From contig NZ_JAAIKE010000014.1 of NCBI RefSeq assembly GCF_010915705.1, positions 1-49,967 on the forward strand: a DNA stretch of 49,967 nucleotides. The letters run 5' to 3'. Below the pieces are notes generated by a model. It was not told the origin of the DNA and searched no databases. It was given only the letters and a program-made list of their open reading frames with translations. A program made the position numbers and the translations under genes. Below are positions 32,720 through 47,933 of the stretch, piece after piece (position 1 is the first letter of the stretch; every line of letters begins with the position of its first letter). Origin of the DNA: Pseudotabrizicola algicola (GTDB lineage Bacteria; Pseudomonadota; Alphaproteobacteria; Rhodobacterales; Rhodobacteraceae).

Positions 32720-32813
32720 TGGAAAGGCTTTGGACTCGGACTGGCGGGCGCTTCGTGCGACCGATGCCGTCTCCAGATGGCACGCCAAACTCCTGCAAGC
32801 TTTGGCTTCCGCT

Positions 32814-32962
32814 AGGTGGATTCCGAAGTGGGTGGATTCCGCGTGGTGGATTCTCTGGATTCCGCAAAAGAATCCAGCACGCTCAGGTCGTGATTTCATA
32901 AGTTAATGATATTAGGTGATTTTCGGGCCTGGATCCCGCGAGGTGGATTCCAGGTGGATTCC
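32814..32962 (+). repeat. Cluster of AGGTGGATTCC repeats
   Basis: Three exact copies of AGGTGGATTCC (32814, 32941, 32952; the last two directly tandem) and three variants (near 32831, 32845 and 32855) within 149 bp, plus an inverted GAATCC at 32870. No gene overlaps. Nearby 32720-32813 and 32963-33200 show nothing I can name. Confidence 0.7.
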
Positions 32963-33212
32963 CCGGTGAAAGTGCTTGTCGCTAGCGAAATGCTGCGCTG
33001 CGCCCCCCCGCATACATTCGGGGCCGGGGAGGAACCATGCCAAGGGGGGGCAGAAGCGAAAGTCAGATGAAGGACTTCCTTTGAGCTACCATCTTCGATG
33101 GCAGGGTCCGCCGCAAAAGGGCGGCAAGGTCGTGCTGGGCTGGCTTAGCAGTTGAGCGCATAGCAAGCTTAGCGACTTTGGACTTAAAAATGCACACGTA
33201 AAAAAAATATAG

Positions 33213-33331: not shown

Positions 33332-34699
33332 ATGTCATTCGAATATTATCCGCAATCCCTTGGGGATCTGAGAGGCGTTCTCGCTGCGCATGGTGTCAGT
33401 GAAGCGTTGATCAAGCCACTCAGCAAGAACCACAACGACAAGAACCAAGTCTACTCTGGGTCAGACTTCCGCCCGCTGTATCCCTTGTTCGATTTGGAAT
33501 TCCGACTTCGTGGCTCGTCTTCCAGTCAAAAGAAGGGCGCACGGACTGAAGGGCAGGCAATCCAAGAGGCCGTGTTCAAGAGTTTCAGCTGGCTGCGGCA
33601 GGATGGAGGTGAGGTCGCTGCACGCGGTGTTCGGATGATCATTTATGCGCAGTATCCGGAAACCCGGCTCAGCGGATTCCAGACCTCCGAGAATACGATG
33701 CCCGCTGCAATGTCAGTGGAGTTCACAAAAAAGCATCCTGAAATTCCCCGTTACCTTGTTCTTGGGCGCCGCGGCGGTGGTGAAGCACTGGCCGTAATGG
33801 TCGCTGATCCAGGCGCAGCCTTTTGCGATGAGGTCTCAAATCTACCAGCTGCCCCTGGCTCCCGTGTCTGGAAGCACCTGCGCCTTCGTCAGACCGCCGA
33901 CGTACGACTTCAGGCATTGCTGGCAGGCGCTGTCGGTAAGTTGCTTCCGGGCTGTCGACTCGACGCGATGGGAATGACCTTGCCGTTCAACGGAACACAG
34001 GTCTGCGGATATACGCTAGAGCATGCGCTCGGCATCAACCCGAACAGCAATTCACATGGGGACTTCGAGGGAATTGAACTAAAGACCCATACTCAGAACA
34101 AAGTCACGCTCTTTACACCTGAGCCAGATATGGGTGCCTATTCGGATGACTTCACCCACTTCATGACTACGTTTGGCTATCAGGACAATGATGGCAACTG
34201 GCGACTGACGGGCATTCATAGGGTTGGTGTCCGTTGCCCGAAAAGCGGTCTGACACTCCAAATCATGAACCATGAACGCGGCAAGTCGCTTGCGGCCAGC
34301 GCTGATCAGGACGTCCATCTGGCCCTGATCGATGATTTTGGCACGCTGGCTGCTGGCTGGAGCCTCGAGCGGATCCTGAACTGCTGGACCGCCAAGCACA
34401 ACGAGGCAGTTTATATTCCGGCAGTAAAAAAAGACTGCAAAGACCCGGCGCTCCTTGGCATCGGGTACAAATACGATGTTAAGTTCTCTGAAAGCATCAT
34501 GTGGTGTCGGGAAACTTCGGCCGAGCAACTTTTCGAAGCGCTGTACAACGGAACGCTATTCTTGGACCCTGCGCCAAAATATTGTCCAGGGCGACTGCAT
34601 TTGAACAAGCGGCGCTCGCAGTGGCGCGTCAATGACATCCACTCGGCTGCCAAGGAGATTTACAATGATGTTCGGTTCATCACACTGAATGGAGGATGA
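33332..34699 (+). CDS. Type II restriction endonuclease, MvaI/BcnI family
   Basis: 455 residues. The segment at about 243-253, GDFEGIELKTH, carries the PD-(D/E)xK-type catalytic residues of MvaI/BcnI nucleases (Asp, then Glu-x-Lys), with TLEHALGI before it and ITLFTPEP-like sequence (VTLFTPEP) after. MvaI and BcnI cut CCWGG and CCSGG as monomers, so a CCNGG-type site is the inference here. The ~220-residue N-terminal half is longer than in MvaI itself and may be a recognition or regulatory extension. GGAG precedes the ATG. It converges on vsr with a 20-nt overlap; the matching m5C methyltransferase follows. Confidence 0.88.
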   Translation: MSFEYYPQSLGDLRGVLAAHGVSEALIKPLSKNHNDKNQVYSGSDFRPLYPLFDLEFRLRGSSSSQKKGARTEGQAIQEAVFKSFSWLRQDGGEVAARGVRMIIYAQYPETRLSGFQTSENTMPAAMSVEFTKKHPEIPRYLVLGRRGGGEALAVMVADPGAAFCDEVSNLPAAPGSRVWKHLRLRQTADVRLQALLAGAVGKLLPGCRLDAMGMTLPFNGTQVCGYTLEHALGINPNSNSHGDFEGIELKTHTQNKVTLFTPEPDMGAYSDDFTHFMTTFGYQDNDGNWRLTGIHRVGVRCPKSGLTLQIMNHERGKSLAASADQDVHLALIDDFGTLAAGWSLERILNCWTAKHNEAVYIPAVKKDCKDPALLGIGYKYDVKFSESIMWCRETSAEQLFEALYNGTLFLDPAPKYCPGRLHLNKRRSQWRVNDIHSAAKEIYNDVRFITLNGG

Positions 34700-35171
34700 C
34701 CTTGTCGAGGTCACCGCCACCGCCCTGAAACCAAAAATGTGCGTTCCTCGGGTCGAGGATGGCAGCAACCATATGGTCCAGCAGCTTTTCGATCTCCTGC
34801 CGCTTCGGGCCTTTCACAGCACATTCCCAGATTGTGCCGATGCGCCAGCCGAGGGCTACAAGAGCTTCTCGGTTCCTTTGATCGCGGAACACGGTGCCGC
34901 CGATCTTAGCTTGCCAGAACTCGGCCCGTGTTTTTGGCCAGTGAAACATAGAACAGTCGTGGCCGTGCCAGAAGCAACCATTTACGAAAATCACAACGTG
35001 ATGGCGGGGAAGAACCATATCTGGCTTGCCGGGCAACTGACTGTCATGCAGCCTAAATCTGAGGCCGCTAGCGTGAAGCCCGCGCCGGATCATCATTTCC
35101 GGCTTCGTGTCACCGCTCTTGATGGCGGCCATATTCCGGCTGCGGGTTTCGCTGTTGTGGACGTCAGCCAA
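34680..35171 (-). CDS. vsr: Very-short-patch repair endonuclease (Vsr)
   Basis: 163 residues. Vsr motifs: RSRNMAAIKSGDTKPEMMIRRGLHASGLRFRLH, LPGKPDMVLPRHHVVIFVNGCFWHGHDCSMFHWPKTRAEFW with the catalytic Asp and His residues, and WECAVKGP. It nicks 5' of T in T:G mismatches formed by deamination of 5-methylcytosine, so it protects sites modified by the neighbouring methyltransferase. Its start overlaps the methyltransferase stop by 8 nt, implying co-translation. Confidence 0.95.
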   Translation of the reverse strand: MADVHNSETRSRNMAAIKSGDTKPEMMIRRGLHASGLRFRLHDSQLPGKPDMVLPRHHVVIFVNGCFWHGHDCSMFHWPKTRAEFWQAKIGGTVFRDQRNREALVALGWRIGTIWECAVKGPKRQEIEKLLDHMVAAILDPRNAHFWFQGGGGDLDKVILHSV

Positions 35172-36396
35172 CCCGAAGAGCCACCTGCCGATTGTCCCGC
35201 TCTATGACTGCTTCAATATGCGGCTTCATGATACGGGCGACTTCGGCAAAAACGGGGACTGCGACAGAGTTGCCGAACTGCCTGTACGCCTGCGTGTCCG
35301 AAACCGGGATTCGGAAGTCATCTCCGTAACCCATTAACCGTGCACACTCGCGCGGAGTAAGTCGGCGGGGATTCTTTCCAAGCCCTCGACTGACCAAGAT
35401 CTCGGAACCATCCTTGAAATAGCGCGCCGACAGCGTGCGTGAGATGCTGTCACCGTTGACGAGGCCAAATCCGAAGCCATTGCCTTTTGCGCGGTGCTTG
35501 GCCGCATAGTCCTGTAAATATTGCCAAAGCTTGTCCGTGAGAGTGAATTTTTCGTTCACAAGCGCGTCAGGTCCAAGCGTATAGTGGCCCTCGGGTGCCT
35601 CGGAGCCGTCGGCTGGGTGCAAGATGTTACGCATTTTCTGATGGCCATAAGCCGGAAGATGCAGGTCGTCCCACGAAAAAGCGGTCTTCTCTCTGAAGCC
35701 AACCATTACGATCCGCTCCCTATGTTGCGGGACAAAGTGGGCCGCGTCGATGATCATCGTGTGCAGGCTGTAGCCCAGTTCTTCGGAAAGCTTGCGTCGA
35801 ATAACCTCGAAAGTCCGACCACGGTCGTGGCTCTTAAGGTTCTTAACATTTTCCAAAAGAAACGCGGCCGGTCGGTGAGCCTTCAAGATGCGCAGAACAT
35901 CGAAGAAAAGGGTTCCTTGGGTTTCGTCTTGGAAACCGTGCAGTCTGCCCAGCGCGTTCTTCTTGGAAACCCCGGCTATCGAGAATGGCTGGCAAGGAAA
36001 CCCTGCAACAAGAACATCATGCTCGGGAATATCCTCCGCCTTAATCTCGGTGATGTCACCGGCGATGGGCCGGTTGTCCGGGTAGTTGGCCAAGTAGGTC
36101 TGTTGGGCAAACCTATCCCATTCAGAAGTGAATACGCACCGGCCATCTGCGCTTTCCATTGCCCTCCGAAGGCCTCCAATTCCGGCGAAGAGGTCGACGA
36201 AGGTGAATGTACCGGATCCAGTATCACCGGAGCGGCGGGCGGCAACCTTCATGCGTAAGAGCTCCATCACGGAGTCCCTAGGTGCCTCTTCCCCCCGTTT
36301 GAAGCGGTATATATGACCCTCCGAGTAGCCCAACGCCTTTGCGGCTTCTTGCACAGTGTAACCTGCCTTGATCAGCAGTTCGGAAAACTCGGTCAT
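35164..36396 (-). CDS. DNA (cytosine-5) methyltransferase with N-terminal HTH
   Basis: 410 residues. Residues 1-45 form a helix-turn-helix (TVQEAAKALGYSEGHIYRFKRG). The m5C methyltransferase motifs follow: I FVDLFAGIGGLR (66-77), IV GFPCQPFS with catalytic C135, VI ENVKN (182-186), VIII QHRERIVMVG, and X QFGNSVAVPVFAEVA. It methylates cytosine in the site cut by the MvaI/BcnI-type nuclease. In M.SsoII/M.EcoRII-like enzymes the N-terminal HTH represses the methyltransferase promoter and helps the nuclease gene; the same may apply here. GAGGG lies 5 nt before the ATG. Confidence 0.94.
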   Translation of the reverse strand: MTEFSELLIKAGYTVQEAAKALGYSEGHIYRFKRGEEAPRDSVMELLRMKVAARRSGDTGSGTFTFVDLFAGIGGLRRAMESADGRCVFTSEWDRFAQQTYLANYPDNRPIAGDITEIKAEDIPEHDVLVAGFPCQPFSIAGVSKKNALGRLHGFQDETQGTLFFDVLRILKAHRPAAFLLENVKNLKSHDRGRTFEVIRRKLSEELGYSLHTMIIDAAHFVPQHRERIVMVGFREKTAFSWDDLHLPAYGHQKMRNILHPADGSEAPEGHYTLGPDALVNEKFTLTDKLWQYLQDYAAKHRAKGNGFGFGLVNGDSISRTLSARYFKDGSEILVSRGLGKNPRRLTPRECARLMGYGDDFRIPVSDTQAYRQFGNSVAVPVFAEVARIMKPHIEAVIERDNRQVALRVG

Positions 36397-36481: not shown

Positions 36482-37141
36482 TCACCGCTTGATCCATGGC
36501 TGCGACTTCGGCATTGCCGTCGTCATCTCGACTTCCCTAAGCATCCCGCCCTCTGCCAGCCCGTCTCGCACCCAGCTCAGCGCCAACCACCAATCCTCAT
36601 AGCGTCGCCGGGCGGATGCGATCTGCTCCGGATGTGGCCGCCAGGTGATGGGGCATGCCAGCACCTCGACCGTCCGCAACTTGCCGCGCGTCTTCACTCG
36701 CTCGGTGCCGACTACGATGGTGGCCGCGCGTTCGCCGTGCTGGTTTCGCTTGGTCTCGACCGGCACGCAGCGTGGCACGGCGCCGGGCATCCAGTCCGGG
36801 GTCATGCCAGCACGCGCGAGTTCGGCCAACTGGATCGCCATGCGGATGCCGCCGAGACTGTCGGGCAAGCCTGCGACTGTGGCGGCGATCACCTCGGCGT
36901 CCGGATGGGAGCACCTGCCCATCTTGTGCTTGCCACCGTCGACCTTGCAGCCAAGAGCGGCGCGTTGCAGCAGGACGTATTCAAGGCCGAAGCCGAAGCC
37001 TTCCTCAGCTATTTCGTCTGGCAGCGGCAATTCAAGCTGCGCTTGCTCAACGCGGAATGCCCATTCCAGTGCCGCCTGCACGCCATGCGCGCGTTTCACT
37101 CGCGTTCCGCCCGTTCGGCAGATTTGTCGCTGCAGGGTCAT
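36482..37141 (-). CDS. Hypothetical protein at the end of the mobile-element operon
   Basis: 219 residues, no family recognised with confidence. A basic N-terminus is followed by ERAATIVVGTERVKTRGKLRTVEV and a C-terminal helical region (RRRYEDWWLALSWVRDGL). No signal peptide or membrane segment. Its ATG overlaps the TGA of the replication-like gene (ATGA), and it ends the five-gene chain. Proteins of this kind occur in prophage or integrative-element early operons, so a DNA-metabolism role is inferred from context only. Confidence 0.65.
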   Translation of the reverse strand: MTLQRQICRTGGTRVKRAHGVQAALEWAFRVEQAQLELPLPDEIAEEGFGFGLEYVLLQRAALGCKVDGGKHKMGRCSHPDAEVIAATVAGLPDSLGGIRMAIQLAELARAGMTPDWMPGAVPRCVPVETKRNQHGERAATIVVGTERVKTRGKLRTVEVLACPITWRPHPEQIASARRRYEDWWLALSWVRDGLAEGGMLREVEMTTAMPKSQPWIKR

Positions 37142-38163
37142 CGCACGCCCCGCAATCGGAGCCGTTCGGGCGTGACCAAGCCGCGCACCAGCATCAAATC
37201 ACGAATGCTGTTGTTGATCGCGCTGACAGGCAGGTAGCCGTCCGCGTTGACCATCTTGGCGTAGAACGCCGCCTTCTCGTCGTCGCTGAGCCGAGGAGTT
37301 TCTTCGCGTTTCCGCCGCCGTTTGGCCTTTTGGCCCTTGGCGGTTGCGATGGCCGTCTGCGAGTCGCGCTGGGCGGCACGTTCCATAAACCGGTCGAGGG
37401 CTTTGGGGCCATCGGGCGGGTTCGGATGATCGGCCCGGGTCTCGATGGCGACCTCGATGATCCGCTTCCGCGACAACCCGATATCGTCAATCCAACGGCG
37501 AACGTGGGTTCTGGCTGGCCAGCCCTGCCACCAAGCGGGCAGGGTGGCGTTGGCGGCGAAGCCCAGCGCTGTAAGCAGTTCAGCGAAGAACCGATCAAAA
37601 TCGGCCTCGCGCGTGCCTGCGTCCTCCTCCTCCTTTACTGGTTTACGTAGTGGTTCTCTTACAAGGTTGGTGTCCGGATTCCGGACACGGCTTTGGGCAT
37701 TTTCCGGACACGGGTCAGGGCAAAAACCGTACACGGGTTCTTGCGGATTGCCGTGTGCGATTTCCGGACACGGCTCGGGCAGATCAGCAGGGATGCTGCC
37801 TTTTTCAGGTGCAGTTTCAGCATCATGGCCGAAAAGTAAAAACCCGTGTCCGGTTTCCGGACATGGCTCGGGATCATGTGGTGCAAAGCCTTCCTCAAAC
37901 CCCAGGATGTAGCGTGTCGGCAGCTGGCGCTTGGTGACGGGATCGATGCGCGGTACCCGGCGCAGCAGATGTTCCGCCTCCAGCCGGTCGAGATGTTCGT
38001 TCAGGGTGGAGCGGCTGATCTCGCAATCATGGGCCAGCCGGTCCTGTGAAGGAAAGCAACCGAAGTCGGGGTTGAAGCGGTCGCAGAGGTGCCAGAGCAC
38101 GATCTTGGTCGTCGGCTTTAGCCCGCGCCGCTGGATCGCCCAGTTGGTGGCATCATGGCTCAT
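37138..38163 (-). CDS. HTH replication-initiator-like protein with repeat-encoding linker
   Basis: 341 residues. The N-terminal ~85 residues form a winged helix of the type found in phage and plasmid replication proteins (GLKPTTKIVLWHLCDRFN, CFPSQDRLAHDCEISRSTLNEHLDRLE). A ~95-residue low-complexity linker follows with repeated PCPE units (EPCPETGHG, EPCPEIAHG, DPCPENAQ), encoded by the DNA repeats at 37670-37866. A C-terminal domain (~185-341) has WWQGWPARTHVRRWIDDIGLS and a basic stretch. By analogy with lambda O, whose origin lies inside its own gene between two domains, this may be the element's initiator with its origin. That is inference. It is joined to both neighbours by ATGA overlaps. 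Confidence 0.7.
   Translation of the reverse strand: MSHDATNWAIQRRGLKPTTKIVLWHLCDRFNPDFGCFPSQDRLAHDCEISRSTLNEHLDRLEAEHLLRRVPRIDPVTKRQLPTRYILGFEEGFAPHDPEPCPETGHGFLLFGHDAETAPEKGSIPADLPEPCPEIAHGNPQEPVYGFCPDPCPENAQSRVRNPDTNLVREPLRKPVKEEEDAGTREADFDRFFAELLTALGFAANATLPAWWQGWPARTHVRRWIDDIGLSRKRIIEVAIETRADHPNPPDGPKALDRFMERAAQRDSQTAIATAKGQKAKRRRKREETPRLSDDEKAAFYAKMVNADGYLPVSAINNSIRDLMLVRGLVTPERLRLRGVR
37670..37866. repeat. Iteron-like GTGTCCGGA repeats inside the replication-like gene
   Basis: The 9-mer TCCGGACAC occurs at 37680, 37703 and 37763, with TCCGGACAT at 37856. Inverted copies are GTGTCCGGA at 37670 and GTGTCCGGT at 37846. Degenerate copies lie near 37727 and 37750. Copies 37670 and 37680 form the perfect palindrome GTGTCCGGATTCCGGACAC; a second, imperfect inverted pair lies at 37846-37864. 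The motif is read in different frames (PCPE versus RVRNPDT), so the DNA rather than the peptide appears conserved. A candidate origin or initiator binding array. Confidence 0.7.
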
Positions 38164-38555
38164 GGTGCGGCCCTCCGCATGGGGCGCTGCGCGCGGCTGG
38201 TGAAGCCATTGTCGGCCAGCGCGCCCAGCGCATCGTCGACTGACCGGACCAGCGCCCAGCCAAAACCCTGCGAACAGACGGTGTCGCGGAAGACCTCCTG
38301 CGATTTGCGCAATCGGCCGGTTTCGCTTTTGACCTCAAGGAACAGCACGCGGCCGCCGGAGATCACGATCAGGTCGGCAAACCCGGCATGGACACCCATG
38401 CCGACCAGGATCGCCTGACGCTTTGCACCGCGGGGCCCGGCCTCGGTCACCTCGTTGACGCAGTGATGGACGATGGCGTCGCGGGGCAGGGCGAAGCGCA
38501 AGGCCTGCACGATTGCGCGCTGGGCATCGGCCTCGGGTGTGCTGCGCCGGTTCAT
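38160..38555 (-). CDS. VRR-NUC domain nuclease
   Basis: 131 residues, the length of stand-alone VRR-NUC proteins of phages and integrative elements. Catalytic residues of the PD-(D/E)xK fold: D61 (GFADLIV), E74 and K76 (LFLEVKSETG), with Q86 (RKSQ). Members act as structure-specific nucleases, possibly on recombination or replication intermediates. Overlaps both neighbours by ATGA, between the small protein gene upstream and the replication-like gene downstream. Confidence 0.9.
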   Translation of the reverse strand: MNRRSTPEADAQRAIVQALRFALPRDAIVHHCVNEVTEAGPRGAKRQAILVGMGVHAGFADLIVISGGRVLFLEVKSETGRLRKSQEVFRDTVCSQGFGWALVRSVDDALGALADNGFTSRAQRPMRRAAP

Positions 38556-38818
38556 GCCGCACCACCTTTCGGAAAAACTGCCGCCGCGATGGCATGCAAG
38601 GGGCGCCGGTCCAGCAGGCGCAGCATTTCGATCGCATCACCGCATTCGCGTGCATCGTCGGTCTGGCCGACAACGACACGTGCCGCGAGGATCACCAAGG
38701 ATTCCGGATGCTTTGTGGTATCAGCCAGGACGCCGCGCGCCTCGGTCAGGCGGTCGTGCATCCAGTCGCCGGTGGCCGAGGTCGGGACAACGGGCGGGCG
38801 GGACAGGAGCTGTTTCAT
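38552..38818 (-). CDS. Small hypothetical protein of the element operon
   Basis: 88 residues from the ATG at 38818, which overlaps the stop of the HTH gene (ATGA). It starts MKQLLSRPPVVPTSATGDWM and contains a helical middle (ESLVILAARVVVGQTDDARECGDAIEMLRLL). Soluble, no recognised domain. The start is chosen because of the overlap; the frame is open further upstream but lies within the HTH gene. The chain of overlaps supports its being a real gene. Confidence 0.65.
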   Translation of the reverse strand: MKQLLSRPPVVPTSATGDWMHDRLTEARGVLADTTKHPESLVILAARVVVGQTDDARECGDAIEMLRLLDRRPLHAIAAAVFPKGGAA

Positions 38819-39063
38819 TTCCGCCCCCGCTGTGTCCGGGCCGGGCGGGTTTGTTCCTGCGCGCTGATCCAGTCCTGGACCGAGGTGCGCCGGTAGAGCA
38901 CCTTGCGGCCGATCCTCGTGCAGGGCGGGCCGAGCTGGCGGGCCTCCCAGCGGGCGAGGGTGTCGCATGCAAGGCCGAGTTCACCGGCCAGCTGCTCGCG
39001 GCTGATCCAGTCAGCCAGTAGGTTTAGGGGTTGGTCCTGCGGTGCAGGGGCTGTGGTCTGCAT
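38815..39063 (-). CDS. Excisionase/AlpA-like MerR-type HTH protein
   Basis: 82 residues. The central part (WISREQLAGELGLACDTLARWEARQLGPPCTRIGRKVLYRRTSVQDWI) is the helix-turn-helix of 'DNA-binding domain, excisionase family' proteins. Such proteins bend att DNA for excision or activate element genes. GGGAG precedes the ATG at 39063. First gene of the five-gene chain; the upstream region has a strong inverted repeat that could be its own binding site. Confidence 0.85.
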   Translation of the reverse strand: MQTTAPAPQDQPLNLLADWISREQLAGELGLACDTLARWEARQLGPPCTRIGRKVLYRRTSVQDWISAQEQTRPARTQRGRK

Positions 39064-39122
39064 TACGGTCTCCCATCCAGATCCCGGCAGAGGCCGGAGA
39101 CGGGGCGAGGGAAGCAGACGGT

Positions 39123-39180
39123 AAGGACCGGAACCTAGGCAGAGACCGGAATTGGGACGCGGCGGGCAATTCCGGTCCTT
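39123..39180. promoter_or_regulatory. Inverted and direct ACCGGAA repeats upstream of the HTH gene
   Basis: AAGGACCGGAA (39123-39133) pairs perfectly with TTCCGGTCCTT (39170-39180), and GACCGGAATT (39144-39153) with AATTCCGGTC (39168-39177). Two copies of the same ACCGGAAT core recur at 42588-42616 in front of the integrase gene. They probably bind an element-encoded regulator or excisionase. The rest of 39064-39367 shows no gene. Confidence 0.6.
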
Positions 39181-39367
39181 GTTTCATTGGGATTTGAGCG
39201 AAAAATCGGAATGCGAATCGGAAAGGCCGTCCAGCGCCATTCCGCCATTTCCGGTTGCCAACACCAGATCGATCCCGCTGCTCCATGCAGGAAGCGATGC
39301 AGTTCGGATTTCAACGGCGATCATTGCGCTACACCGGGCGGCGCGGGACAGGACGCGCGTGCCGGTG

Positions 39368-40369
39368 TCAGGGCAGTGAAGGGAAATCGCTGCGACGGTG
39401 GGCCTCGACGAGGATGCGCAGTTCCGGCGGGGCGATCACATCGACCACATCACCCCATTGATAGAGGTGCCAGGCCATCTCCAGCCAGCCCCCGGCGGTG
39501 AACCGAACGGTCAGGCTGCCGTCGGCCTCGTCCTGAACCTGCTGATCGGGGTGAAAGCCGAAGGTCCGTGCGACATCGGCGGCTGCGGGGGCAAACCGCC
39601 ACTCCACCGGTCCGTACTCATCGTCGGAATGGAACGACCCGAAGGCCTTGGCGGCGTGCCTGCCAAGATCAAAGCCGGGATCCCGCACGAAGGAGTCCTG
39701 CAGGAGGCTGGCGCGGCTGATCCGGTCCAGCCGGAAATGCCGATACTTGCCGCCGTTGTCGATCTCGCGGGCGATCAGATAGCCGCGCATGCCGAAGAGA
39801 ACGCCGTAGGGCTCGACCGCCCGCGACCGTGGCGCGGCATCCTGCGCACCGGCATAATCGATCTGCATCGTGAACGGGCCTTTCAGCGCGTTGTCGATCG
39901 CGCCAAGGACAAGCGCCGAATACTGCGCGCGGGGCCCAGGACGGCAGGCATGACCTCGGGCCTCCAGCACCGCCTCGGCATCCACCTCGGCGCGGCGGGC
40001 AAAGGTCGGGGGCATCGTGGCAAGCAAACGGTTGCGCAGGGAGGTCAGCGCAGCAACCTCAGTGGTTGCACCATCACGCTCGGCGCGACGGATCCCCATT
40101 TCCAGCGCTGACAATTCGCTGTCGCGAATGCCCTGCAGGTGCAGCAGGCGGCTGTCGGGCAGTTGCCACCACTTGCGCCGTTCCTTGTCGGTGCGGGTCT
40201 GCACCATCGGAAACGCCTCCTCCAGCGCCCGTGACATGCGCTGGGCTGTGCGGAGGGTCACGCCGAAGGTGTCCACGATCTGGACCAGGCTGATGCCGCC
40301 CGGCCTGGCGGCCGCCTCTTCGGCCAAACGCATGATGTCGAGGGCCTTGCCCAGACGTTTGTTGTCCAT
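39368..40369 (-). CDS. WYL-domain transcriptional regulator
   Basis: 333 residues. An N-terminal winged helix (ISLVQIVDTFGVTLRTAQRMSRALEEAF) is followed by a linker, a WYL domain (AVEPYGVLFGMRGYLIAREIDNGGKYRHFRLDRI) and a C-terminal WCX-like extension (GSLTVRFTAGGWLEMAWHLYQWGDVVDVIAP). WYL proteins sense nucleic-acid or nucleotide signals and often control phage defence or DNA-damage genes. The ATG at 40369 is chosen; the frame is open 276 nt further upstream but without a start supported by a ribosome site. Divergent from the 198-residue gene at 40644. Confidence 0.9.
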   Translation of the reverse strand: MDNKRLGKALDIMRLAEEAAARPGGISLVQIVDTFGVTLRTAQRMSRALEEAFPMVQTRTDKERRKWWQLPDSRLLHLQGIRDSELSALEMGIRRAERDGATTEVAALTSLRNRLLATMPPTFARRAEVDAEAVLEARGHACRPGPRAQYSALVLGAIDNALKGPFTMQIDYAGAQDAAPRSRAVEPYGVLFGMRGYLIAREIDNGGKYRHFRLDRISRASLLQDSFVRDPGFDLGRHAAKAFGSFHSDDEYGPVEWRFAPAAADVARTFGFHPDQQVQDEADGSLTVRFTAGGWLEMAWHLYQWGDVVDVIAPPELRILVEAHRRSDFPSLP

Positions 40370-40643
40370 CTTCCATCCCTGACCGAACCTGACAGGGACG
40401 TTAACGACAATTCGCTTCAAAAGCGATTGGCTGGCTATGGTCAGCTCAAGCCGATTCCACCTGTGCGTGTTTCCGATCACCGGGGTGTTTTTCACCCGGA
40501 TCTCCAGACATGGCTGTTTGAAGACACCTTGAGACGTGTTCCTGGACAGCGGGCCTGCTGGCAAGCTGCTGTTCGGCAACGCGATCCCTGCCATGCCCGG
40601 TGCTGACCCGGGTGTCGCTGAATGAAGTAAGGACGCACGACCC

Positions 40644-41240
40644 ATGAGCCTGCCGCCGAGAGCCTTCTATTCCTTGAATGAGACATCCGCCCGTTGGGGT
40701 TGTGCAGCTGCCGACCTGGCCGGATGGGCCGCAACCGACCATCTGACACTGGTCACCAGCATCGCTTCGGTGATCTGCGGCAAGCAGCCGGTGGCGGGCA
40801 TTGTGGTGGTCAGCGCCGCCGACATGATGCGGATGTTCCGCCGTCATGGCCCGAGCGACGAGGAATGCCGGATCTATCGCATCCGGCCGCAGGGCAGCGC
40901 AGAGTGGCAATACATCACGGAACCGACGGATGGCGTGGTCATCAAGATCACCGATCTGATGCTGCTGGCCGAGGAGGTGCAGAAGTTCGAGGACGAGCGC
41001 GACCTGCTGCGGCGCCCCGCCGGGTCAGCGGGTTCTGCGCCGCGCTACGATTGGGAGGGCATGACCATCATGCTGTTTCGCCGCATCAACGATCAAGGTG
41101 TGCCCGCAACGCAGGCCGAACTGATCGCGGAGGTGCAGGATTGGTTTGCCCAGAACTCGCCCAACGGTGAAATCCCCGAGGAAAGCACGACGCGGAAGAA
41201 GGTCGCGCCGATTTGGCGGGCGCTGCGAGAACGGGAGTGA
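40644..41240 (+). CDS. Hypothetical protein divergent from the WYL regulator
   Basis: 198 residues, no family recognised. The N-terminal part (YSLNETSARWGCAAADLAGWAATDHLTL) looks like a degenerate DNA-binding fold of the type that begins many phage-region proteins. The C-terminal third (TQAELIAEVQDWFAQNSPNGEIPEESTTRKKVAPIWRAL) looks like a second helix-turn-helix. This suggests a DNA-binding or regulatory role. It shares a 274-nt divergent region with the WYL gene and converges on the integrase gene with a 19-nt gap. Confidence 0.75.
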   Translation: MSLPPRAFYSLNETSARWGCAAADLAGWAATDHLTLVTSIASVICGKQPVAGIVVVSAADMMRMFRRHGPSDEECRIYRIRPQGSAEWQYITEPTDGVVIKITDLMLLAEEVQKFEDERDLLRRPAGSAGSAPRYDWEGMTIMLFRRINDQGVPATQAELIAEVQDWFAQNSPNGEIPEESTTRKKVAPIWRALRERE

Positions 41241-41259
41241 TTGACACCGATCCTGCCGT

Positions 41260-42516
41260 TCAGGCGCTTTTCTGTTCCTGATCGGCATCGTGCACCAGCT
41301 GGGGCCGGGGCCGGAAGATGCTGGCAACAGCATTGACCCCGTCGCGCAGCGGCGAGTCCATCAGGTGCGCATAGCGTTGGGTCGTTTGCATCTGCGTGTG
41401 ACCCAGCAGCTTGCCGATCATTTCCAGCGAGGCCCCGCCGCTGACCAGTAGCGATGCAAAGGTGTGGCGCAGATCGTGGATCCGGACATCGGGCAGTTTC
41501 GCCTCGCTCTGGATCCCGATCCAGAACCGGCGGATTTCCTTGACCGGCTGGCCGGGCGTGTCGCCGGGGAAGAGCCACGGATTGCCGCGTGGCACCAGCA
41601 GGGCGCGCTGGCGCACGATGGCCGCCACATCGCCCGAAATCGGGATGCGGTGGATCTTGCGCTGCTTGGTGGTCGCCGCCGGTTTTGACCAGCTGCCTAG
41701 GTCGAGATTGAACTGTTCAAACCGTGCCTGTCGCACCTCGCCCGACCGCGCGCCGGTCAGCATGCAGAGCCGGATGATCCCGGCCGCGCGCTGGTCCTTG
41801 GCGGCATCCAGCGCCTTGGCCAGCCGCCCGATTTCCTCGGGCGTCAGGAAACGTTCGCGTTCGTTCTCGATCCGACGGCGGAACCCGCTGGCCGGATTGT
41901 CCGGTCGCATGCCCCAGCCGATGGCCAGCGTGAACATCTTGCGCAGCACCTCACCCACTCGGTTGGCGCGCACCGGCGTGGGCTTCGGCCCCTGCAGCTT
42001 GCGGGCCCGGTTATTCGGTTTGGCCTTCGAGGGGCGAGCCCGGCCTGCAGCGATCTTGGTCAGCAGCTTTTCGACATCGGCCTTGGTGATCTCGGTAACC
42101 AGCTTCTTGCCCCAGTCGGGCGCCACCAGCTTGTGCATGATGGTGTGCTGGTCGGCGGCATTGCGGGCTGCGAGGTGCGGGGTATGTTCAGCCAGATAGC
42201 GCGCTATTATGTCGTTGACCCGCGGGGCCTCGCGCGACGTCTCGCGCAGGCTGAGAGGATCGATCCCTTCATCAATGTCGCGTCGCAGTTCCTTGGCCCG
42301 TTCCCGCGCGGCGACCGTGTTCCACTCCGGCCAGCGCCCGATCGTCATCCGCCTCTGTCGCCCAGCGATCCGGTAGTCCAGCGTGAAGGCCCGGTTGCCC
42401 GAGGGGTAGATGGTGATCGAGAACCCGCGCACATCGGTGTCGAAAATCTGGTAATCCCGCCCCAGGTTCTCAGCCTCTCGGACGGTTTTCTCATTCAGTT
42501 TCAGCCTGTTGACCAT
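41260..42516 (-). CDS. Tyrosine-type site-specific integrase (P4-like, DUF4102 N-terminus)
   Basis: 418 residues. The arm-binding N-terminal domain (YQIFDTDVRGFSITIYPSGNRAFTLDYRI, then RRMTIGRWPEWNTVAARERAKEL) is followed by a SAM-like core-binding domain and the catalytic domain. Catalytic residues: Arg in TGARSGEV (~255), Lys in KQRKIHRIPI (~288), HDLRHT (~345), LLGHTQ, and the nucleophile Tyr in TTQRYAHL (~383). It is the natural candidate for insertion into tRNA-fMet. It lies 5.3 kb inside the right att copy, separated by the defence module, which may have been inserted later. Confidence 0.95.
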   Translation of the reverse strand: MVNRLKLNEKTVREAENLGRDYQIFDTDVRGFSITIYPSGNRAFTLDYRIAGRQRRMTIGRWPEWNTVAARERAKELRRDIDEGIDPLSLRETSREAPRVNDIIARYLAEHTPHLAARNAADQHTIMHKLVAPDWGKKLVTEITKADVEKLLTKIAAGRARPSKAKPNNRARKLQGPKPTPVRANRVGEVLRKMFTLAIGWGMRPDNPASGFRRRIENERERFLTPEEIGRLAKALDAAKDQRAAGIIRLCMLTGARSGEVRQARFEQFNLDLGSWSKPAATTKQRKIHRIPISGDVAAIVRQRALLVPRGNPWLFPGDTPGQPVKEIRRFWIGIQSEAKLPDVRIHDLRHTFASLLVSGGASLEMIGKLLGHTQMQTTQRYAHLMDSPLRDGVNAVASIFRPRPQLVHDADQEQKSA

Positions 42517-42587
42517 GGATCTATCCCCATCTGCTCGTCCGACATGAGGCGTGGATTCGCGCCCTTATCAAGCAAAGCATGGCGACA

Positions 42588-42616
42588 GGACCGGAATGCA
42601 GGCGGTGACCGGAATT
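42588..42616 (+). repeat. Direct GACCGGAAT repeats upstream of the integrase gene
   Basis: GGACCGGAAT (42588-42597) and TGACCGGAATT (42606-42616) lie 18 bp apart, 72-100 nt before the integrase start. The same core occurs at 39125-39177 upstream of the excisionase-like gene. Probable sites for one regulator acting on both. The rest of 42617-42811 shows only a 36-codon open stretch that I do not call. Confidence 0.6.
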
Positions 42617-42811
42617 GATTAGGATACAAGCTTTCCGCATCTTGGTTGCAGGTGGTCTTTGTGAGCAGTATGATTTCGACACTATGCTCAAGATATGTGG
42701 AGGCCTTTGCTTTCAAAGAGCTTGAGGAAGCCAACACCCCTGTACAACGAGCAAGGTCGCCCGCCAAATAGCTGAGGAAAGGCGAAGATTGTTTTGGACA
42801 CCACAGTGAGC

Positions 42812-43696
42812 ATGGAAGAACTGGAAGAATATGCGCGTACCCTCGAAGCGAGCGGGGACTATCGTGTTTTGCGACGGCTTACCCAACGAAAGTCGATCGA
42901 AATACCTGATGAAGTAGTAACGCGCAGAGGCCTCTTTGTTGACGTTGAAACAACGGGGTTGGATCCATCTAAACATGAAATTATAGAACTTGCTATGGTG
43001 CCGTTCAGCTATGGATTAGACGGCAAGATTTATTCATTGGGTGAACCTTTCCAAAAAATGCGGCAGCCATTGAGGGCAATTCCGGCAGAAATTACTGCGA
43101 TCACCGGCATTGACGATTCAATGGTAGCGGGCGCAAAAATTGATCCACAAGAAGTTGCTGCATTCGCCGCCGGTTCTGTATTGATAATAGCTCATAATGC
43201 CGAATTTGATCGGCGTTTCCTCGAGCGCTTTTCCGACGTCTTTGCCTCGGTCGCTTGGGCATGCTCGATGACCCAGATAGATTGGATCGGTGAGGGTTAT
43301 CAGGGCTTTAAGCTAAGTTATCTCGCAAACGACGCTGGTTTCTTCTATGAACGACACAGGGCTACTAGCGACTGTCTTGCTGCGATTGAACTCTTGGCTC
43401 GACCATTGGCTCGCAGCGGGCGTCTGGCTTTGACTGAGCTCTTGGAACGGGCCAGGCGCCCTACTTGGCGTGTTTGGGCAGAAAGTGCGCCATTCGACAC
43501 TAAAGACTTACTGAAGGCGCGAAGCTATCGTTGGAATGCAGATGCAAATGGCAGGCCTCGTGCATGGTACATCGACGTTCTTGAGGCCGAGCTTGAAACG
43601 GAGTTGGAATTTTTGAAGAATGAAGTCTTCCGTCGGGATGTAAATATCCCCAAAAGCCGGATCGATGCCTACAATAGGTTCTCCGAACGAGTGTAG
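42812..43696 (+). CDS. DEDDh 3'-5' exonuclease (DnaQ-like)
   Basis: 294 residues. An acidic helical N-terminus is followed by the RNase-T/DnaQ exonuclease fold: Exo I FVDVETTGLD (Asp, Glu), Exo II IAHNAEFDRRFL (Asp), Exo III HRATSDCLAAIELL (His, Asp). A C-terminal ~70-residue domain (FDTKDLLKARSYRWN, then RAWYIDV) is found in many bacterial DnaQ-like proteins. It would degrade DNA or RNA from the 3' end. It lies 129 nt upstream of, and on the same strand as, the OLD/UvrD pair and shares their low GC. The start is uncertain: ATG at 42812 or TTG at 42794, neither with a good ribosome site. Confidence 0.88.
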   Translation: MEELEEYARTLEASGDYRVLRRLTQRKSIEIPDEVVTRRGLFVDVETTGLDPSKHEIIELAMVPFSYGLDGKIYSLGEPFQKMRQPLRAIPAEITAITGIDDSMVAGAKIDPQEVAAFAAGSVLIIAHNAEFDRRFLERFSDVFASVAWACSMTQIDWIGEGYQGFKLSYLANDAGFFYERHRATSDCLAAIELLARPLARSGRLALTELLERARRPTWRVWAESAPFDTKDLLKARSYRWNADANGRPRAWYIDVLEAELETELEFLKNEVFRRDVNIPKSRIDAYNRFSERV

Positions 43697-43825
43697 CTGT
43701 GGATGCCATAGAGGTTGCGCTTCAAGATTAAATTCACCCTCAGTGTGAAAGAGTTAAGAAGTAAAGCTGATGAATAAAAGCAGTCACCTCGATGAGTGGA
43801 ATATGATTATGAAAGTTTGGGGAAA

Positions 43826-45727
43826 ATGCACATAAGTCGACTAGCAATTGATAATTTTCGTTGCATTCGTGCACTCGATATCGAACTTTCGCCGACTTCA
43901 GTTATCATCGGCGAAAACAACGCTGGAAAGACTGCAGTTCTTGATGCTGTCAAAATTGCCCTAAGCCGTAAGTGGGGAAGGTCAGGGCAGACAGGTTTCA
44001 ATGAGTATGACTTTCCATTTGGTGCGGCGCAGGAAGGCACAGACGGTGATATTCGAATCCGACTGTGGTTCTCCGAGTCACAGCGAAATGAATGGCATCA
44101 GCCCATGGTGGATGATTTAATTGAGATAATACGTACTGATCCACACTCCGGCACGCACTCGATTTGTATGCAAGTGACGTGTTCCTTCGAGAGTGTCACC
44201 AACTCGGTTGAGCCTGTTTGGCATTTCCTGAACGATGCGGATCAACCGTTTGCCGGCGCCGGCGCAAGAAACCAAAATTTATCGCGTTTCTTTGACTATG
44301 TACCATGCTTCTCGATGGCTGCAATGCGCGATGCTGGGGTTGAATTTGGTGGCCGATCGCGGTTTTGGGGAACCCTGCTCAAGAGTATAGAGGTGGATAA
44401 GGACAAGGCGGCAAGTCTTGAAGAACGGTTTTCTCAGCTTAACGGCGAGCTCTTAGCTGCTGATCCTAAACTTGAGGCAATAAAGGATGCGTTGAAGGCG
44501 ATCAGCACGGTGATTGCAAACGGAGCGGCGGGCGATGTCGACATTCGTGCAATCCCGGTCAATCTATGGGAGATAATCAGTCGGAGCGAGGTGGTCATTC
44601 AAGGGCAGACCCAAGATCCTTGGCTGCCAATTGGAAAACATGGGCACGGTGTCCAAAGTTTGGCCATTATTTTCTTATTCAGGGCTTTTGTAGAGAATGC
44701 ATTAGGTGGAGCTTTGCCAGAAGAGGCGGAACCAATTCTGACTTTGGAGGAACCCGAGGCTCACCTACATCCTCAAGCGTGTCGGTCCCTCTGGTTGGCC
44801 ATAAATGCTCTGCCTGGACAGAAGTTTGTAACAACTCACTCACCATTTTTTGTTCAGAATGTGCCATTCAAGGACATCATTGTCCTGCGACGAGGCACCA
44901 GTGGTCCTGTCGCGGCGTCACTTCCGCGAAACTTCAAAGCCGTTGTGCCGTACAACGCACTGTTAGAGGCTGCAATCGCTAAAATTGGGCCGAGTATCAG
45001 TTGGAATCCGACATCCGGATGCATCGTCTGCACACAGACTATCTCTGATGCTCAGTTTCGTGATCTTTTAATGTGCTATACGGGCGCAGACAGAGGCCCG
45101 CACCATGCTGAGATTAAAGCTATGCGCGATCGCAGCAGGAGCTTCATCGGAAATGAAGAAATCAGCAAGCTGGAAAGTTGGGCAAAGCGGATCCGTGGGG
45201 AGATATTTTTTGCAAACAAGTGGCTATTATGTGAGGGCCAGGCTGAATATGCAATCTTGTCAGCAGTTGCAGACAAGCTCGGCTGTCCTCTTGACGCTCA
45301 CGGAATCTCTGTGATCGACTATCAGAACAACGGCAGTCCAGGTGCGTTTGCAGCTTTGGCTCGGGTATTAGATTATCCGTGGGCTATGATCTGTGACGGT
45401 GACAATGGTGGCAACGATCACATCGCTCAACTTAGGTCACACCATTTTTCTGACGCTGAGATAGCCGATCGCGTCACCCAACTACCGAAGGATTTTGACC
45501 TCGAAAGGCTGATCGTTACATGCGCCCTAAGGCCTTGCTTGCTGGCAGCGGCTCGCGAGCTGGATCCGCAGGTGGTGGACAGTGATGAAGCTCTGCTTGC
45601 ACTTGCCTATGCTCGAAAGGAAGAGATCGCTGTGCGGATAAGTGCCCAAATCCGGCTAACGGCGTCTGTTGGAGACATCCCAGCAGAGTTTCGAGCCATT
45701 TTTGTCAGAATAGGAGCTTGCGAATGA
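43826..45727 (+). CDS. OLD-family ATP-dependent endonuclease (Gabija GajA-like)
   Basis: 633 residues. ABC-type ATPase part: Walker A GENNAGKT (29-36), signature-like HGHGVQSLAII, Walker B ILTLEEPEAHLHP and TTHSPFF. The C-terminal TOPRIM nuclease has its Glu in LLCEGQAEY and the DxD in ICDGDNGGND. This architecture, followed by a UvrD helicase, is that of GajA of the Gabija anti-phage system (class 2 OLD). GajA nicks DNA when nucleotide levels drop during phage replication. The ATG at 43826 has GGGG just upstream; a GTG at 43796 is possible. Its stop overlaps the helicase ATG (ATGA). Confidence 0.88.
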   Translation: MHISRLAIDNFRCIRALDIELSPTSVIIGENNAGKTAVLDAVKIALSRKWGRSGQTGFNEYDFPFGAAQEGTDGDIRIRLWFSESQRNEWHQPMVDDLIEIIRTDPHSGTHSICMQVTCSFESVTNSVEPVWHFLNDADQPFAGAGARNQNLSRFFDYVPCFSMAAMRDAGVEFGGRSRFWGTLLKSIEVDKDKAASLEERFSQLNGELLAADPKLEAIKDALKAISTVIANGAAGDVDIRAIPVNLWEIISRSEVVIQGQTQDPWLPIGKHGHGVQSLAIIFLFRAFVENALGGALPEEAEPILTLEEPEAHLHPQACRSLWLAINALPGQKFVTTHSPFFVQNVPFKDIIVLRRGTSGPVAASLPRNFKAVVPYNALLEAAIAKIGPSISWNPTSGCIVCTQTISDAQFRDLLMCYTGADRGPHHAEIKAMRDRSRSFIGNEEISKLESWAKRIRGEIFFANKWLLCEGQAEYAILSAVADKLGCPLDAHGISVIDYQNNGSPGAFAALARVLDYPWAMICDGDNGGNDHIAQLRSHHFSDAEIADRVTQLPKDFDLERLIVTCALRPCLLAAARELDPQVVDSDEALLALAYARKEEIAVRISAQIRLTASVGDIPAEFRAIFVRIGACE

Positions 45728-47625
45728 GATCGGATCGAGACCAGGAATCACTACTGCTTGCCCTTACTGACGTTCAACGCGAAGCTGCCCTGTGGAACGA
45801 GGGCGCGATGATGCTGCTCGCAGGGCCTGGGTCTGGTAAAACACGTGTACTTACAGCTCGGATTGCTCGGCTGTTCAAGGCAGAGCCAAGCGCGAAGTGG
45901 AGGATACTTGCACTTACATTCACGACGCGCGCGGCTGATGAGATGCGCCAGAGAGTGGAGGAACTTGTTCCTGAATGTGTCGAACGCATGTTTGCGGGAA
46001 CCTTCCATTCCTTTGCCTGCGAGGTGCTTCGTCAGAGTGGCTCGCATGTCGGAGTGAGGACTGACTTTAAGATCTATTCAAGTCTCGAAGATCGCTTGCT
46101 CCTTCTTTCCGAGGCGCTGATGCGCGCCGATCTGGATATAGGTGAACCATTAGATCGGGCTCTGCCAGTACTTGACGGTTTGAGGGATCGACTTGCTGGG
46201 CCTGATGACTGCTTGCGCTACTTTTCAGATGAGAACCGGGGCAAGCGTTTTGCTTCGGCCTACGACGCCTACATGCGTCACTTGCAGGCTGAGAATGCTT
46301 TGGACTTTCCTGCGATTATATACATGGCCTATAGGCTTTTCACCAGTTTCCCTGTGATTGCAGATCGCTACAGAAGAACTTACCGTTTCACAAGTTTGGA
46401 TGAGTTTCAGGACACAAATCATGCCCAGTATTCGTTCGTGCGAGCCTTTACAGGAAATGACTATAAGAACCTGTTTGTTGTCGCTGACGACGATCAGGTG
46501 ATTTACCAATGGAATGGTGCGAGCCCACAACGGCTACAACAATTTGTGACGGATTATGACCCGTCTATTCTCCAGATGCCAACCAACTTTCGCTGTCCTT
46601 CGGATGTTGTGTTGATGGCTAATGGATTAGTTTCGCACAACTTGTTGCGAACTCCAGGCAAGAATCCGCTCGTTGCTGGAAAGGCAGAAGCCCATGACAT
46701 CGAAAGTGTGCGTCTCCTGCGATTTGAGTCAGACGATGAGGAGGCGGCAGGGGTCGCTGCGGATCTAGCACAAAAACGTGTTCAGAATGCCGGGGACGTC
46801 GCGATCATCGCGCGCACAAAGAACTTGCTTGTCAAAGTCCAAGGCGAACTCGCCGTCCTCGGCATTGCTTCACAGATTTCCCAACGAAGAGACTCGTTTG
46901 CGAGTGTCCCGTATCAATGGCTACATTGCTGCCTTAAGATTGCAAATCGGCGGACCGATCCACGAGAATTCGCTGCCTTTGTAGAGGCTGGGAACGTACT
47001 ATTGGACTTGAAACTTGAAGCTGATGATTTGGTCGAGCTGGCGCGATCAGCCCATGGAGATTTCTTGAGAGCGTGGGCGAGCGAGGCGCAACCTTTGTCG
47101 GCGTTCGCAAAAAAAGCAGTGGACATTCTGCGCACCGAGCTTGTCGATCGGAATGATTTTCGGAAGTTTGTCAGAGGCCTTACAGAACTCTTTGCACAAC
47201 CCGAGTGGACGCTAGTCGAAACGCAGCCTTCATTTGAAGAAGACCAGAGAGCTTGGCGGGATCTCTTCACAGAGATTTCTGGACAGGTCGGGCGGCTTGC
47301 GCCACTGGATACGTTCTTGCAGGAGTTGGATCTGCGTTCCAAAGAACCGCCAATGAAAACGGGAGTGGTCCCCCTTCTCACAATTCATGGCTCAAAGGGA
47401 AATGAGTTTCCACATGTCTATTTGATGGGTCTCGCAGAAGATGTTCTTCCATCCTTCCAGAGCAAGAAGGCAGGCGACCGATCGCCCCAAATGGAGGAGG
47501 AACGTCGCAATTGCTTCGTTGCAATCACGCGATGTAAAGATACCCTCACGCTCTCTTATGCTAGAGTATACAACGGTTGGGCTAAGGCGCCGTCGCGCTT
47601 CCTACGGGAGATGGCTATCATGTGA
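45724..47625 (+). CDS. UvrD/PcrA-like superfamily 1 helicase (Gabija GajB-like)
   Basis: 633 residues. SF1 motifs in order: Q-motif LTDVQREAAL, I AGPGSGKTRV, Ia LTFTTRAADEM, Ib AGTFHSFA, II TSLDEFQDTN, III VADDDQVIYQWNGA, IV PTNFRCPSDVV, V LTIHGSKGNEF, VI EEERRNCFVAITR. It is expected to sense or unwind DNA ends and partner the OLD nuclease. It is longer than GajB of the founding Gabija system (about 500), closer to a whole UvrD-like core. GGAG lies 8 nt before the ATG at 45724, which overlaps the OLD stop by 4 nt, so synthesis is coupled. Confidence 0.9.
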   Translation: MRSDRDQESLLLALTDVQREAALWNEGAMMLLAGPGSGKTRVLTARIARLFKAEPSAKWRILALTFTTRAADEMRQRVEELVPECVERMFAGTFHSFACEVLRQSGSHVGVRTDFKIYSSLEDRLLLLSEALMRADLDIGEPLDRALPVLDGLRDRLAGPDDCLRYFSDENRGKRFASAYDAYMRHLQAENALDFPAIIYMAYRLFTSFPVIADRYRRTYRFTSLDEFQDTNHAQYSFVRAFTGNDYKNLFVVADDDQVIYQWNGASPQRLQQFVTDYDPSILQMPTNFRCPSDVVLMANGLVSHNLLRTPGKNPLVAGKAEAHDIESVRLLRFESDDEEAAGVAADLAQKRVQNAGDVAIIARTKNLLVKVQGELAVLGIASQISQRRDSFASVPYQWLHCCLKIANRRTDPREFAAFVEAGNVLLDLKLEADDLVELARSAHGDFLRAWASEAQPLSAFAKKAVDILRTELVDRNDFRKFVRGLTELFAQPEWTLVETQPSFEEDQRAWRDLFTEISGQVGRLAPLDTFLQELDLRSKEPPMKTGVVPLLTIHGSKGNEFPHVYLMGLAEDVLPSFQSKKAGDRSPQMEEERRNCFVAITRCKDTLTLSYARVYNGWAKAPSRFLREMAIM

Positions 47626-47658
47626 GTGTGGCAAATGTGGATTGTCTATCCGCTCGTC

Positions 47659-47677
47659 ACCTCAACGCCACCTCAAC
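47659..47677 (+). repeat. Right-end ACCTCAAC tandem sites
   Basis: ACCTCAACGCCACCTCAAC, identical to 219-237. It lies 148 bp before the tRNA fragment, whereas the left copy lies 63 bp after the left att repeat. Possible arm-type integrase sites. The remaining 47626-47825 has no gene that I can support. Confidence 0.55.
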
Positions 47678-47825
47678 CCACGTATGCAGTTTTGCCCCGC
47701 TCCAACCCGCGACAATCCGTCGAAACTCCATCAATGCCAACGAACGGCATCCAACTTATCTCGTGATTTCAAGGGGATGGCGTCTAAGTTTATGAATCTA
47801 CGCGATTATTGATTTATGGGTCCAT

Positions 47826-47875
47826 AGGCTCATAACCTGAAGGCCGCAGGTTCAAATCCTGCCCCCGCAACCAAA
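47826..47875 (+). repeat. Right att copy: detached 3' part of tRNA-fMet (attR)
   Basis: Fifty bases from the anticodon arm to the CCA end, 47 identical to 106-155. The 5' half of a tRNA is absent, so this is not a working gene. The T-stem pair is G-C instead of A-U, a compensated change showing that it came from a functional tRNA of slightly different sequence. It is followed by a strong terminator, as the original chromosomal tRNA locus would be. Confidence 0.88.
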
Positions 47876-47912
47876 TCATCCCGGAATATTACAAAGGCTT
47901 AGGCCAAAATAG

Positions 47913-47933
47913 AGCGCCCCAAGGGGCGCTTTT
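47913..47933 (+). terminator. Rho-independent terminator behind the tRNA fragment
   Basis: AGCGCCC and GGGCGCT pair around CAAG, followed by TTT. It lies 38 nt after the tRNA fragment, where the native tRNA terminator would be; the island has carried it ~47.8 kb from the intact tRNA. Confidence 0.8.

Follow-up and report, generated by a model that had tools for sequence, protein, structure and literature searches.

Organisation of the locus

The DNA analysed here (the window) is a stretch of 49,967 nucleotides from Pseudotabrizicola algicola, and contains an island with one att end, genes for a tyrosine integrase and an excisionase-like protein, and a gene resembling phage replication initiators (Table 1). 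Comparison of the window with other loci by blastn reveals a conserved block (36494-42617) in most of the 25 loci listed, comprising the PHROG 9306 gene, the initiator, the VRR-NUC gene, the excisionase-like gene, the WYL regulator and the integrase; parts of the 39.4-42.6 kb region are inverted or missing in some of these 25. Further conserved pieces are found near 47657-47990 (in 10 of the 25 listed loci) and at 32792-33051 (in 11 of the 25), with differing genes in between.

Near 47.8 kb, the conserved piece includes the 3' portion of a tRNA-fMet gene, the loci being alike from GGCTCATAACC onward and unlike before it. Among loci with a located initiator gene, contig duplicates included, 49 have a fragment of this tRNA (up to four mismatches in 28 bases), and in 47 of the 49 it lies upstream of the initiator, which is the side occupied by the integrase in the window. 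This distribution suggests that elements of this family most likely integrate at tRNA-fMet. Three contigs of the source genome (C6, C28 and C29) also begin with such a tRNA-fMet end.

For the left end of the island there are two candidates, the tRNA-fMet at 77-153 and a position at about 32.8 kb. The interval between this intact tRNA-Met and the module (153-32400) encodes an aconitase, a biotin carboxylase, a MaoC-like protein and MetK. A search for att repeats between the ends of the module returned two matches for the window, of 13 and 12 bp, and a 13-bp match in one of eight relatives with none in the other seven; none of these matches was convincing. Empty sites were sought across 16 genomes from the genus: two of the 15 others match the right flank, and 14 of the 15 match the metK-side flank, in short pieces only.

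Table 1. Features of the initiator gene and its surroundings, in window coordinates. The seven-base words are written in gene-strand orientation, the direct 9-mers as they read on the + strand.
Positions	Strand	Feature	Basis
36482..37141	-	Downstream overlapping gene, PHROG 9306, conserved in relatives	Profile match
37138..38163	-	Initiator gene containing its own putative origin, 341 aa	HTH_36 and PHROG 345
37141..37629	-	Predicted C-terminal helical domain, residues 179-341	AlphaFold2
37619..37668	-	Putative unwinding element, formed by AT-rich codons (NLVREPLRKPVKEEE) that follow the array	
37671..37677	+	Closing half-site of the array, inverted; exact 9-mer at 37670-37678	
37681..37687	-	Direct half-site TGTCCGG, last in the 23-bp direct series; 9-mer TCCGGACAC at 37680-37688	
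37704..37710	-	Direct half-site TGTCCGG, neighbours 23 bp away; 9-mer TCCGGACAC at 37703-37711	
37727..37733	-	Half-site with one mismatch (TGTACGG), absent from the initial annotation	
37764..37770	-	Direct half-site TGTCCGG; 9-mer TCCGGACAC at 37763-37771	
37847..37853	+	Inverted half-site, palindrome with 37857-37863; 9-mer ACCGGACAC at 37846-37854	
37857..37863	-	Direct half-site TGTCCGG, read as CP(E); 9-mer TCCGGACAT at 37856-37864	
37873..38163	-	Predicted N-terminal winged-helix DNA-binding domain, residues 1-97	AlphaFold2 prediction
37975..38013	-	Presumed recognition helix, residues 51-63	AlphaFold2 and residue-base covariation
38160..38555	-	VRR-NUC nuclease gene, conserved neighbour	Profile match
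38815..39063	-	Small HTH gene, excisionase-like	HTH_17 below cut-off; PHROG 66 'excisionase and transcriptional regulator'
39368..40645	-	WYL/WCX regulator	Profile match
41260..42516	-	Tyrosine integrase	Phage_integrase, E=9.4e-22
47823..47873	+	Presumed att end of the island, on its right side, formed by the 3' part of tRNA-fMet(CAT)	

The initiator and its predicted structure

The product of the initiator gene matches the Pfam family HTH_36 at residues 14-63 (E=2.2e-14) and, in a profile search, PHROG 345 ('replication initiation O-like') over residues 1-207 (E=3.5e-31). An AlphaFold2 model based on a 54-row alignment (mean pLDDT 72, pTM 0.32) predicts an N-terminal winged helix with helices at residues 3-11, 17-28, 40-47 and 51-63 and wing strands at 67-73 and 80-87. 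This is the confident part of the model, with pLDDT values of 76-95 by blocks across residues 1-90. The following linker, residues 99-169, has a pLDDT below 50 almost throughout and is hence predicted to be disordered. It leads into a predicted helical domain, left unmatched by a Pfam scan of the protein, that we presume to be the part recruiting the replisome.

The best sequence match in the PDB is the transcriptional regulator PA3341 (E=0.001), and a Foldseek search of the PDB with the model found generic winged helices only, with no match at E<=0.001. A fold search of viral models yielded 66 matches at E<=0.001, the best 50 of which are mostly HTH proteins or unnamed and have low overall TM-scores; one lambdoid O model is among these 50, at rank 21, as a weak match (E=1.5e-5, TM-score 0.24 by query).

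A half-site array in the DNA of the linker

The DNA that encodes the predicted disordered linker contains six TGTCCGG half-sites and a seventh with one mismatch, placing the repeats within the initiator's own coding sequence, between the regions for its predicted DNA-binding and C-terminal domains. The six words, four direct and two inverted, had been reported in the initial annotation and were all recovered at their places. At the position of the mismatched copy, several close homologues have TGTCCGG. Three of the direct copies in the window gene, the mismatched one included, are spaced in 23-bp steps, and the conserved features reach beyond the left edge that had previously been assigned to the repeat region, into the AT-rich codons that follow the array.

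The number of copies expected by chance was estimated from synonymous-codon shuffles of the initiator gene, in which both the protein and the codon pool were held fixed. The exact 8-mer TCCGGACA occurs five times against a shuffle mean of 0.73, and none of 20000 shuffles reaches five. The excess is weaker for the 9-mer with up to one mismatch, of which there are seven copies against a mean of 2.2, a number reached by 8 of 3000 shuffles. The same DNA word is indeed translated in different ways, as had been pointed out: TGT CCG GAA is read as CPE, and CGT GTC CGG AAT CCG GAC as RVRNPD, with the mismatched half-site using the third reading frame.

Conservation of the array among homologues

Homologues were collected at several taxonomic levels. 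Within the source's taxonomic family, 50 of 295 genomes match the initiator at E<=0.001, some by one domain only; scans of the class (40 of 385 genomes) and the phylum (54 of 398) gave matches, many of them weak. A scan of 84,980 species genomes gave 110 loci, 80 of which were retained, and two scans of IMG/VR added 50 loci from the first and 80 of 257 from the second. Matches were also found in 17 phage records, from which three stretches were retrieved. As two of the six search peptides used for the species genomes and for the first IMG/VR scan lie in or beside the linker, these two scans slightly favour genes with a retained linker.

Of 245 distinct initiator genes, 197 passed the length and score limits, and 191 of these 197 typed genes entered the tables described below. 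Half-sites were typed by the repeated words after CC, replacing an anchor-based typing that mis-registered some genes; in four genes the register was adjusted manually by a single base, with no call made for the last one. Because periodic copies were an inclusion criterion, the finding that 191 of 191 genes have a spacing of 22-24 bp is true by construction, and it was set aside as evidence.

The repeats are neither absent nor shuffled in close homologues, either of which had been named as grounds for abandoning the initial interpretation. Among 50 full-length loci with at least 70% identity, 45 have four to six exact TCCGGACA words, two have three and three have none; the last (L004, L057 and L069) lack the exact word because theirs differs. 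Elsewhere in each locus (up to 21 kb) the exact word is present in none to four copies. The anticipated peak of synonymous conservation over the repeats is also observed. In a profile of excess synonymous identity across 116 distinct full-length homologues, residues 153-168 reach +0.52 and +0.56, compared with an average of +0.24 over the gene, and all blocks from 97 to 192 exceed the mean except 121-128, which has one informative codon. Conservation is also raised outside the linker, at residues 1-8 (0.32) and 313-320 (0.38).

The use of the word across reading frames extends to the homologues. With at most one mismatch, 177 of the 191 typed genes use every one of the three frames for the forward word, and 89 do so with exact copies, while the reversed-word control gives 0 of 191; 168 genes have the exact word in at least two frames. 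Forward copies, again with at most one mismatch, number 997 in total (530, 247 and 220 by frame). Since the word is found in all three frames and the control in none, selection acts on the DNA itself, as the initial annotation had argued from the window. A triple with approximately 23-bp spacing is found in 180 of the 191 homologues when a six-base word with up to one mismatch is used, and in 87 exactly with the whole word, compared with 0 of 191 for the control.

The array is followed in 184 of the 191 genes by an anchor motif, NxV[RKTNS][EK]. The 13 codons from this anchor have a third-position AT fraction of 0.71, compared with 0.22 for the remaining codons of the gene, and third-position AT is higher after the array in every one of the 184 anchor-bearing genes. 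A GTAA..GAACC motif is present in 183 of them.

The initiator homologues in phage genomes sit among small early-type genes, and the presence of the family there as well implies that this is a replication gene common to phages and islands. A paralogue on another contig of the source genome (L002, G000:C28:55286-56320) has the same array, with an identical half-site word, and the same residues 51, 52, 53 and 56; each of the two initiators may therefore act at the origin of the other.

Covariation of the half-site word with the recognition helix

More distant homologues keep the array with other words, among them TCTCCGG, TGTCCAG, TGTCTCA, TGTCGCA, TGTGCAA/G, ACTCCGA and TCGGCAA. Across the 191 distinct genes, the word goes with the recognition helix. 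Base 2 is G in all 146 genes with Arg51 and C in all 45 with Ile, Val or Pro at this position. Base 4 is G in the four genes with Arg52 and C in all 187 with Ser52 or Ala52, none of which has G. Base 6 is C in 20 of 20 genes with Arg56 and in none of the 171 with other residues. The tables stay clean when one representative is counted for each of the 52 clusters at 90% identity outside the helix (40/40 and 12/12 for residue 51 and base 2; 3/3 and 49/49 for residue 52 and base 4; 13/13 and 0/39 for residue 56 and base 6).

When all 97 columns of the domain are ranked by their ability to predict each base, column 51 is the best for base 2 and column 52 for base 4, with no residual entropy. Column 56 is the best for bases 5, 6 and 7, with some entropy left, and a residue other than Arg at this position does not fix base 6. 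Base 3 is nearly invariant and explained by many columns; base 1 is best predicted by column 92, outside the helix. Leaving out whole clusters at 70% identity, the table predicts bases 2, 4 and 6 in 13 of 16 clusters, compared with 7 of 16 for the nearest neighbour outside the helix; the three missed clusters concern base 6 with Asp56 or Asn56. A tree from which the helix columns were withheld requires a minimum of four changes for R51, three for R56, two for R52 and nine for base 6. The independent pairs all go the same way, with one pair per trait on well-supported branches, a number that leaves the sign test without power.

Six typed genes were left out of the tables, three of which fit by eye: L223 mostly, L235 (R56 with TGTCTCA) and L022 (I51 with a TCTCCGA-like word). 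The other three (L159, L160 and L278) have a DERS helix and GAACCGGACA-type repeats and cannot be registered. The array of L223 is a mosaic of three TGTCCGG, one TGTCCGA and one TGTCTCA, with a helix, SRSTLNE, of the TGTCCGG class; it is possibly a recombinant, or a switch in progress.

Remote homologues were inspected visually and post hoc. Repeated GTGAA, GTGCA or GCGCA words occur in the linkers of several whose helix has Arg51-Arg52 or Lys51-Arg52 (L282, L284, L287, L288, L292, L294, L249 and L254), and two with Arg51 and Arg56 (L279 and L280) have GTCTCA. The pattern is not seen in L290, L291 and L251, which have Arg51-Arg52, and L285, with Arg51 and Arg56, does not fit. On balance, these relationships seem to us to favour a family-wide residue-by-base code, in which residue 51 would set base 2, residue 52 base 4, and residue 56 would contribute to bases 5-7.

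A probable origin of replication within the gene of its initiator

These repeats are very probably the iterons of an origin embedded in its own initiator's gene and bound by that protein's winged helix, which would make the gene a single-gene replicon. The N-terminal winged helix would bind the TGTCCGG half-sites, namely the three direct copies in 23-bp steps, the closing inverted copy and the more distal copies. The assembled nucleoprotein complex would then melt the stretch of AT-rich codons that directly follows. Recruitment of the replicative helicase of the host may fall to the C-terminal domain. Initiator and origin would thereby be inherited and swapped as a unit, the half-site word changing in step with residues 51, 52 and 56 of the recognition helix. 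The covariation between residues and bases lends indirect support to binding of the iterons by the initiator. The array would serve in the replication of islands or phages, and the autonomous replication of this island that the initial annotation had proposed appears plausible.

Covariation with the helix would be expected equally if the same protein bound these sites as an internal operator, repressing or timing an early operon while replication starts elsewhere, and the HTH of the initiator does have similarity of the MarR/GntR type. Such an operator seems improbable: the AT-rich codons adjoin the array in 184 of 184 anchor genes, which fits an origin, as do the assignment to PHROG 345 and the phage context. 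A role for the inverted repeats in mRNA structure, for attenuation or translation control, is rated lower still. The region 37650-37880 of the window, folded as minus-strand RNA, has a z score of -5.29, with 0 of 200 shuffles as good, yet palindromic DNA yields such a fold automatically, hairpins need no direct copies of the same word at 23-bp spacing, and residues 51, 52 and 56 of the protein change together with the word. Least credible of all is the duplication of a functional peptide (PCPE...GHG), with the DNA words as a by-product. Frame 0, which gives PCPE in the window, is the commonest (530 of the 997 forward copies), but all three frames are used in most of the genes (177 of 191 with at most one mismatch, 89 exactly), the repeat region is predicted to be disordered, and the peptide differs by class while the layout remains constant.

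A further possibility, compatible with an iteron origin in the family, is that the origin is genuine there while the copy in the window's island is a relic that neither excises nor replicates. The mismatch in one half-site would be consistent with this, as would the missing left end of the island, sought through att repeats and empty sites in the genus, and the lack in the window of a gene of about 400 residues that follows the initiator in L040 and L113. This gene (L113:7880-9142 and L040:11027-12196; 389 or 420 aa) lies between the initiator and the PHROG 9306 gene and matches PHROG 27243, with a weaker match to DNA methyltransferases; a 420-aa frame is found at the same place in L055 (11009-12271). 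Against a relic, the reading frame of the initiator, its recognition helix, the AT tract and the integrase are all intact, and we regard it as unlikely, if less so than the operator.

Comparison with known origins

The iteron origin favoured here recalls that of lambda, a parallel already drawn in the initial annotation, which holds for the layout and not for descent that can be traced in sequence. A DNA-binding domain, repeats in the linker, an AT-rich tract and a C-terminal domain follow each other as at lambda ori, and the 23-bp steps of the window gene compare with 20-24 bp in lambda, where the starts of successive annotated iterons in gene O are separated by 20, 24 and 23 bp (record J02459, used as a yardstick). 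Profile comparison detects no homology between lambda O and the window initiator, which is not a match to PF04492 (Phage_rep_O), its own Pfam family being HTH_36. Next to the initiator no lambda-P-like helicase loader was found, the adjoining gene being that of PHROG 9306. The array would thus appear to work like lambda ori, in a protein outside the lambda O family. In lambdoid phages, gene O has iterons and an AT-rich region in its middle, each iteron being a dyad, and extra iterons lengthen the O protein of Stx phages, according to the sections consulted of a study of these phages (PMC7466680). The difference here is that half-site words and helix switch within one family.

Among phage proteins, gene 66 of Rhodobacter phage RcHotPocket offers a comparison, as phages of the RcHotPocket type encode a full-length homologue with approximately 40% identity. 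The phage records annotate this protein only as a 'helix-turn-helix DNA binding domain protein', with no origin annotated in the three stretches fetched, and none is described in the excerpted text of the paper on these R. capsulatus phages (PMC8601537).

Covariation between initiator and origin has been described for the PLE satellites of Vibrio cholerae, where the DNA-binding domain of RepA covaries with the origin and cognate pairs are required for replication (PMC8263062, in part). An initiator DNA-binding domain that covaries with its origin, a putative one in the present case, is common to both, and the PLEs are satellite islands, as the present element may be. The PLE origin is intergenic, however, the domain is of the RepA_N type, and the covariation reported in that part of the paper concerns whole domains rather than a residue-by-base table (PMC8263062). 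The phage-inducible islands (PICIs) of Gram-negative bacteria share with the present island an integrase, an excision or regulator gene, a replication module, putative here, with iterons at an AT-rich region, and cargo. They differ in having a pri-rep module with the ori after the gene and two sets of iterons flanking the AT region, as described in the portion consulted (PMC6092414). No primase match was detected among the genes scanned, and no phage structural gene was seen in the set of scanned ORFs, which covered the window and portions of L040, L113 and L055.

Residues of the begomovirus Rep initiator are said to covary with bases of its iterons. That protein is a rolling-circle initiator, unrelated to the one in the window, with an intergenic origin. 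A search of the openly licensed literature found no described origin or recognition code for the family of the window initiator. Origins within initiator genes are known from lambdoid phages; what appears to be new is a family of such self-embedded candidate origins with a residue-by-base code. If this is correct, a few initiator residues would be enough to predict which type of origin an island or phage has, incompatibility groups among these elements could be read from sequence, and the gene would rewrite its own coding sequence, in several frames at once, whenever the specificity of the protein changes. Beyond the known case of lambda, the family would offer many natural versions of a lock and key, each in a single DNA segment, with which a joint change in the specificity of initiator and origin could be tested while the same bases encode protein. 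It would also offer a route to annotating origins in alphaproteobacterial phages and defence-carrying islands, and perhaps to island incompatibility.

Cargo and accessory sequences of the island

The island carries defence genes as cargo. Between the integrase and the att end (42794-47625), a DEDDh exonuclease gene is followed by those for Gabija GajA and GajB, and relatives carry other DNA in this slot. A second variable slot (33332-36396) encodes an MvaI/BcnI-type endonuclease, Vsr and a C5 methylase; in relatives it contains type I restriction genes (L113) or genes for a methylase, GmrSD and HEPN (L040). A second cluster of short repeats, GTGGATTCC and its variants, is located at 32816-32962, near the far end of the module, and could be an accessory site for recombination, transfer or packaging. 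Similar clusters are present in the ten relatives examined.
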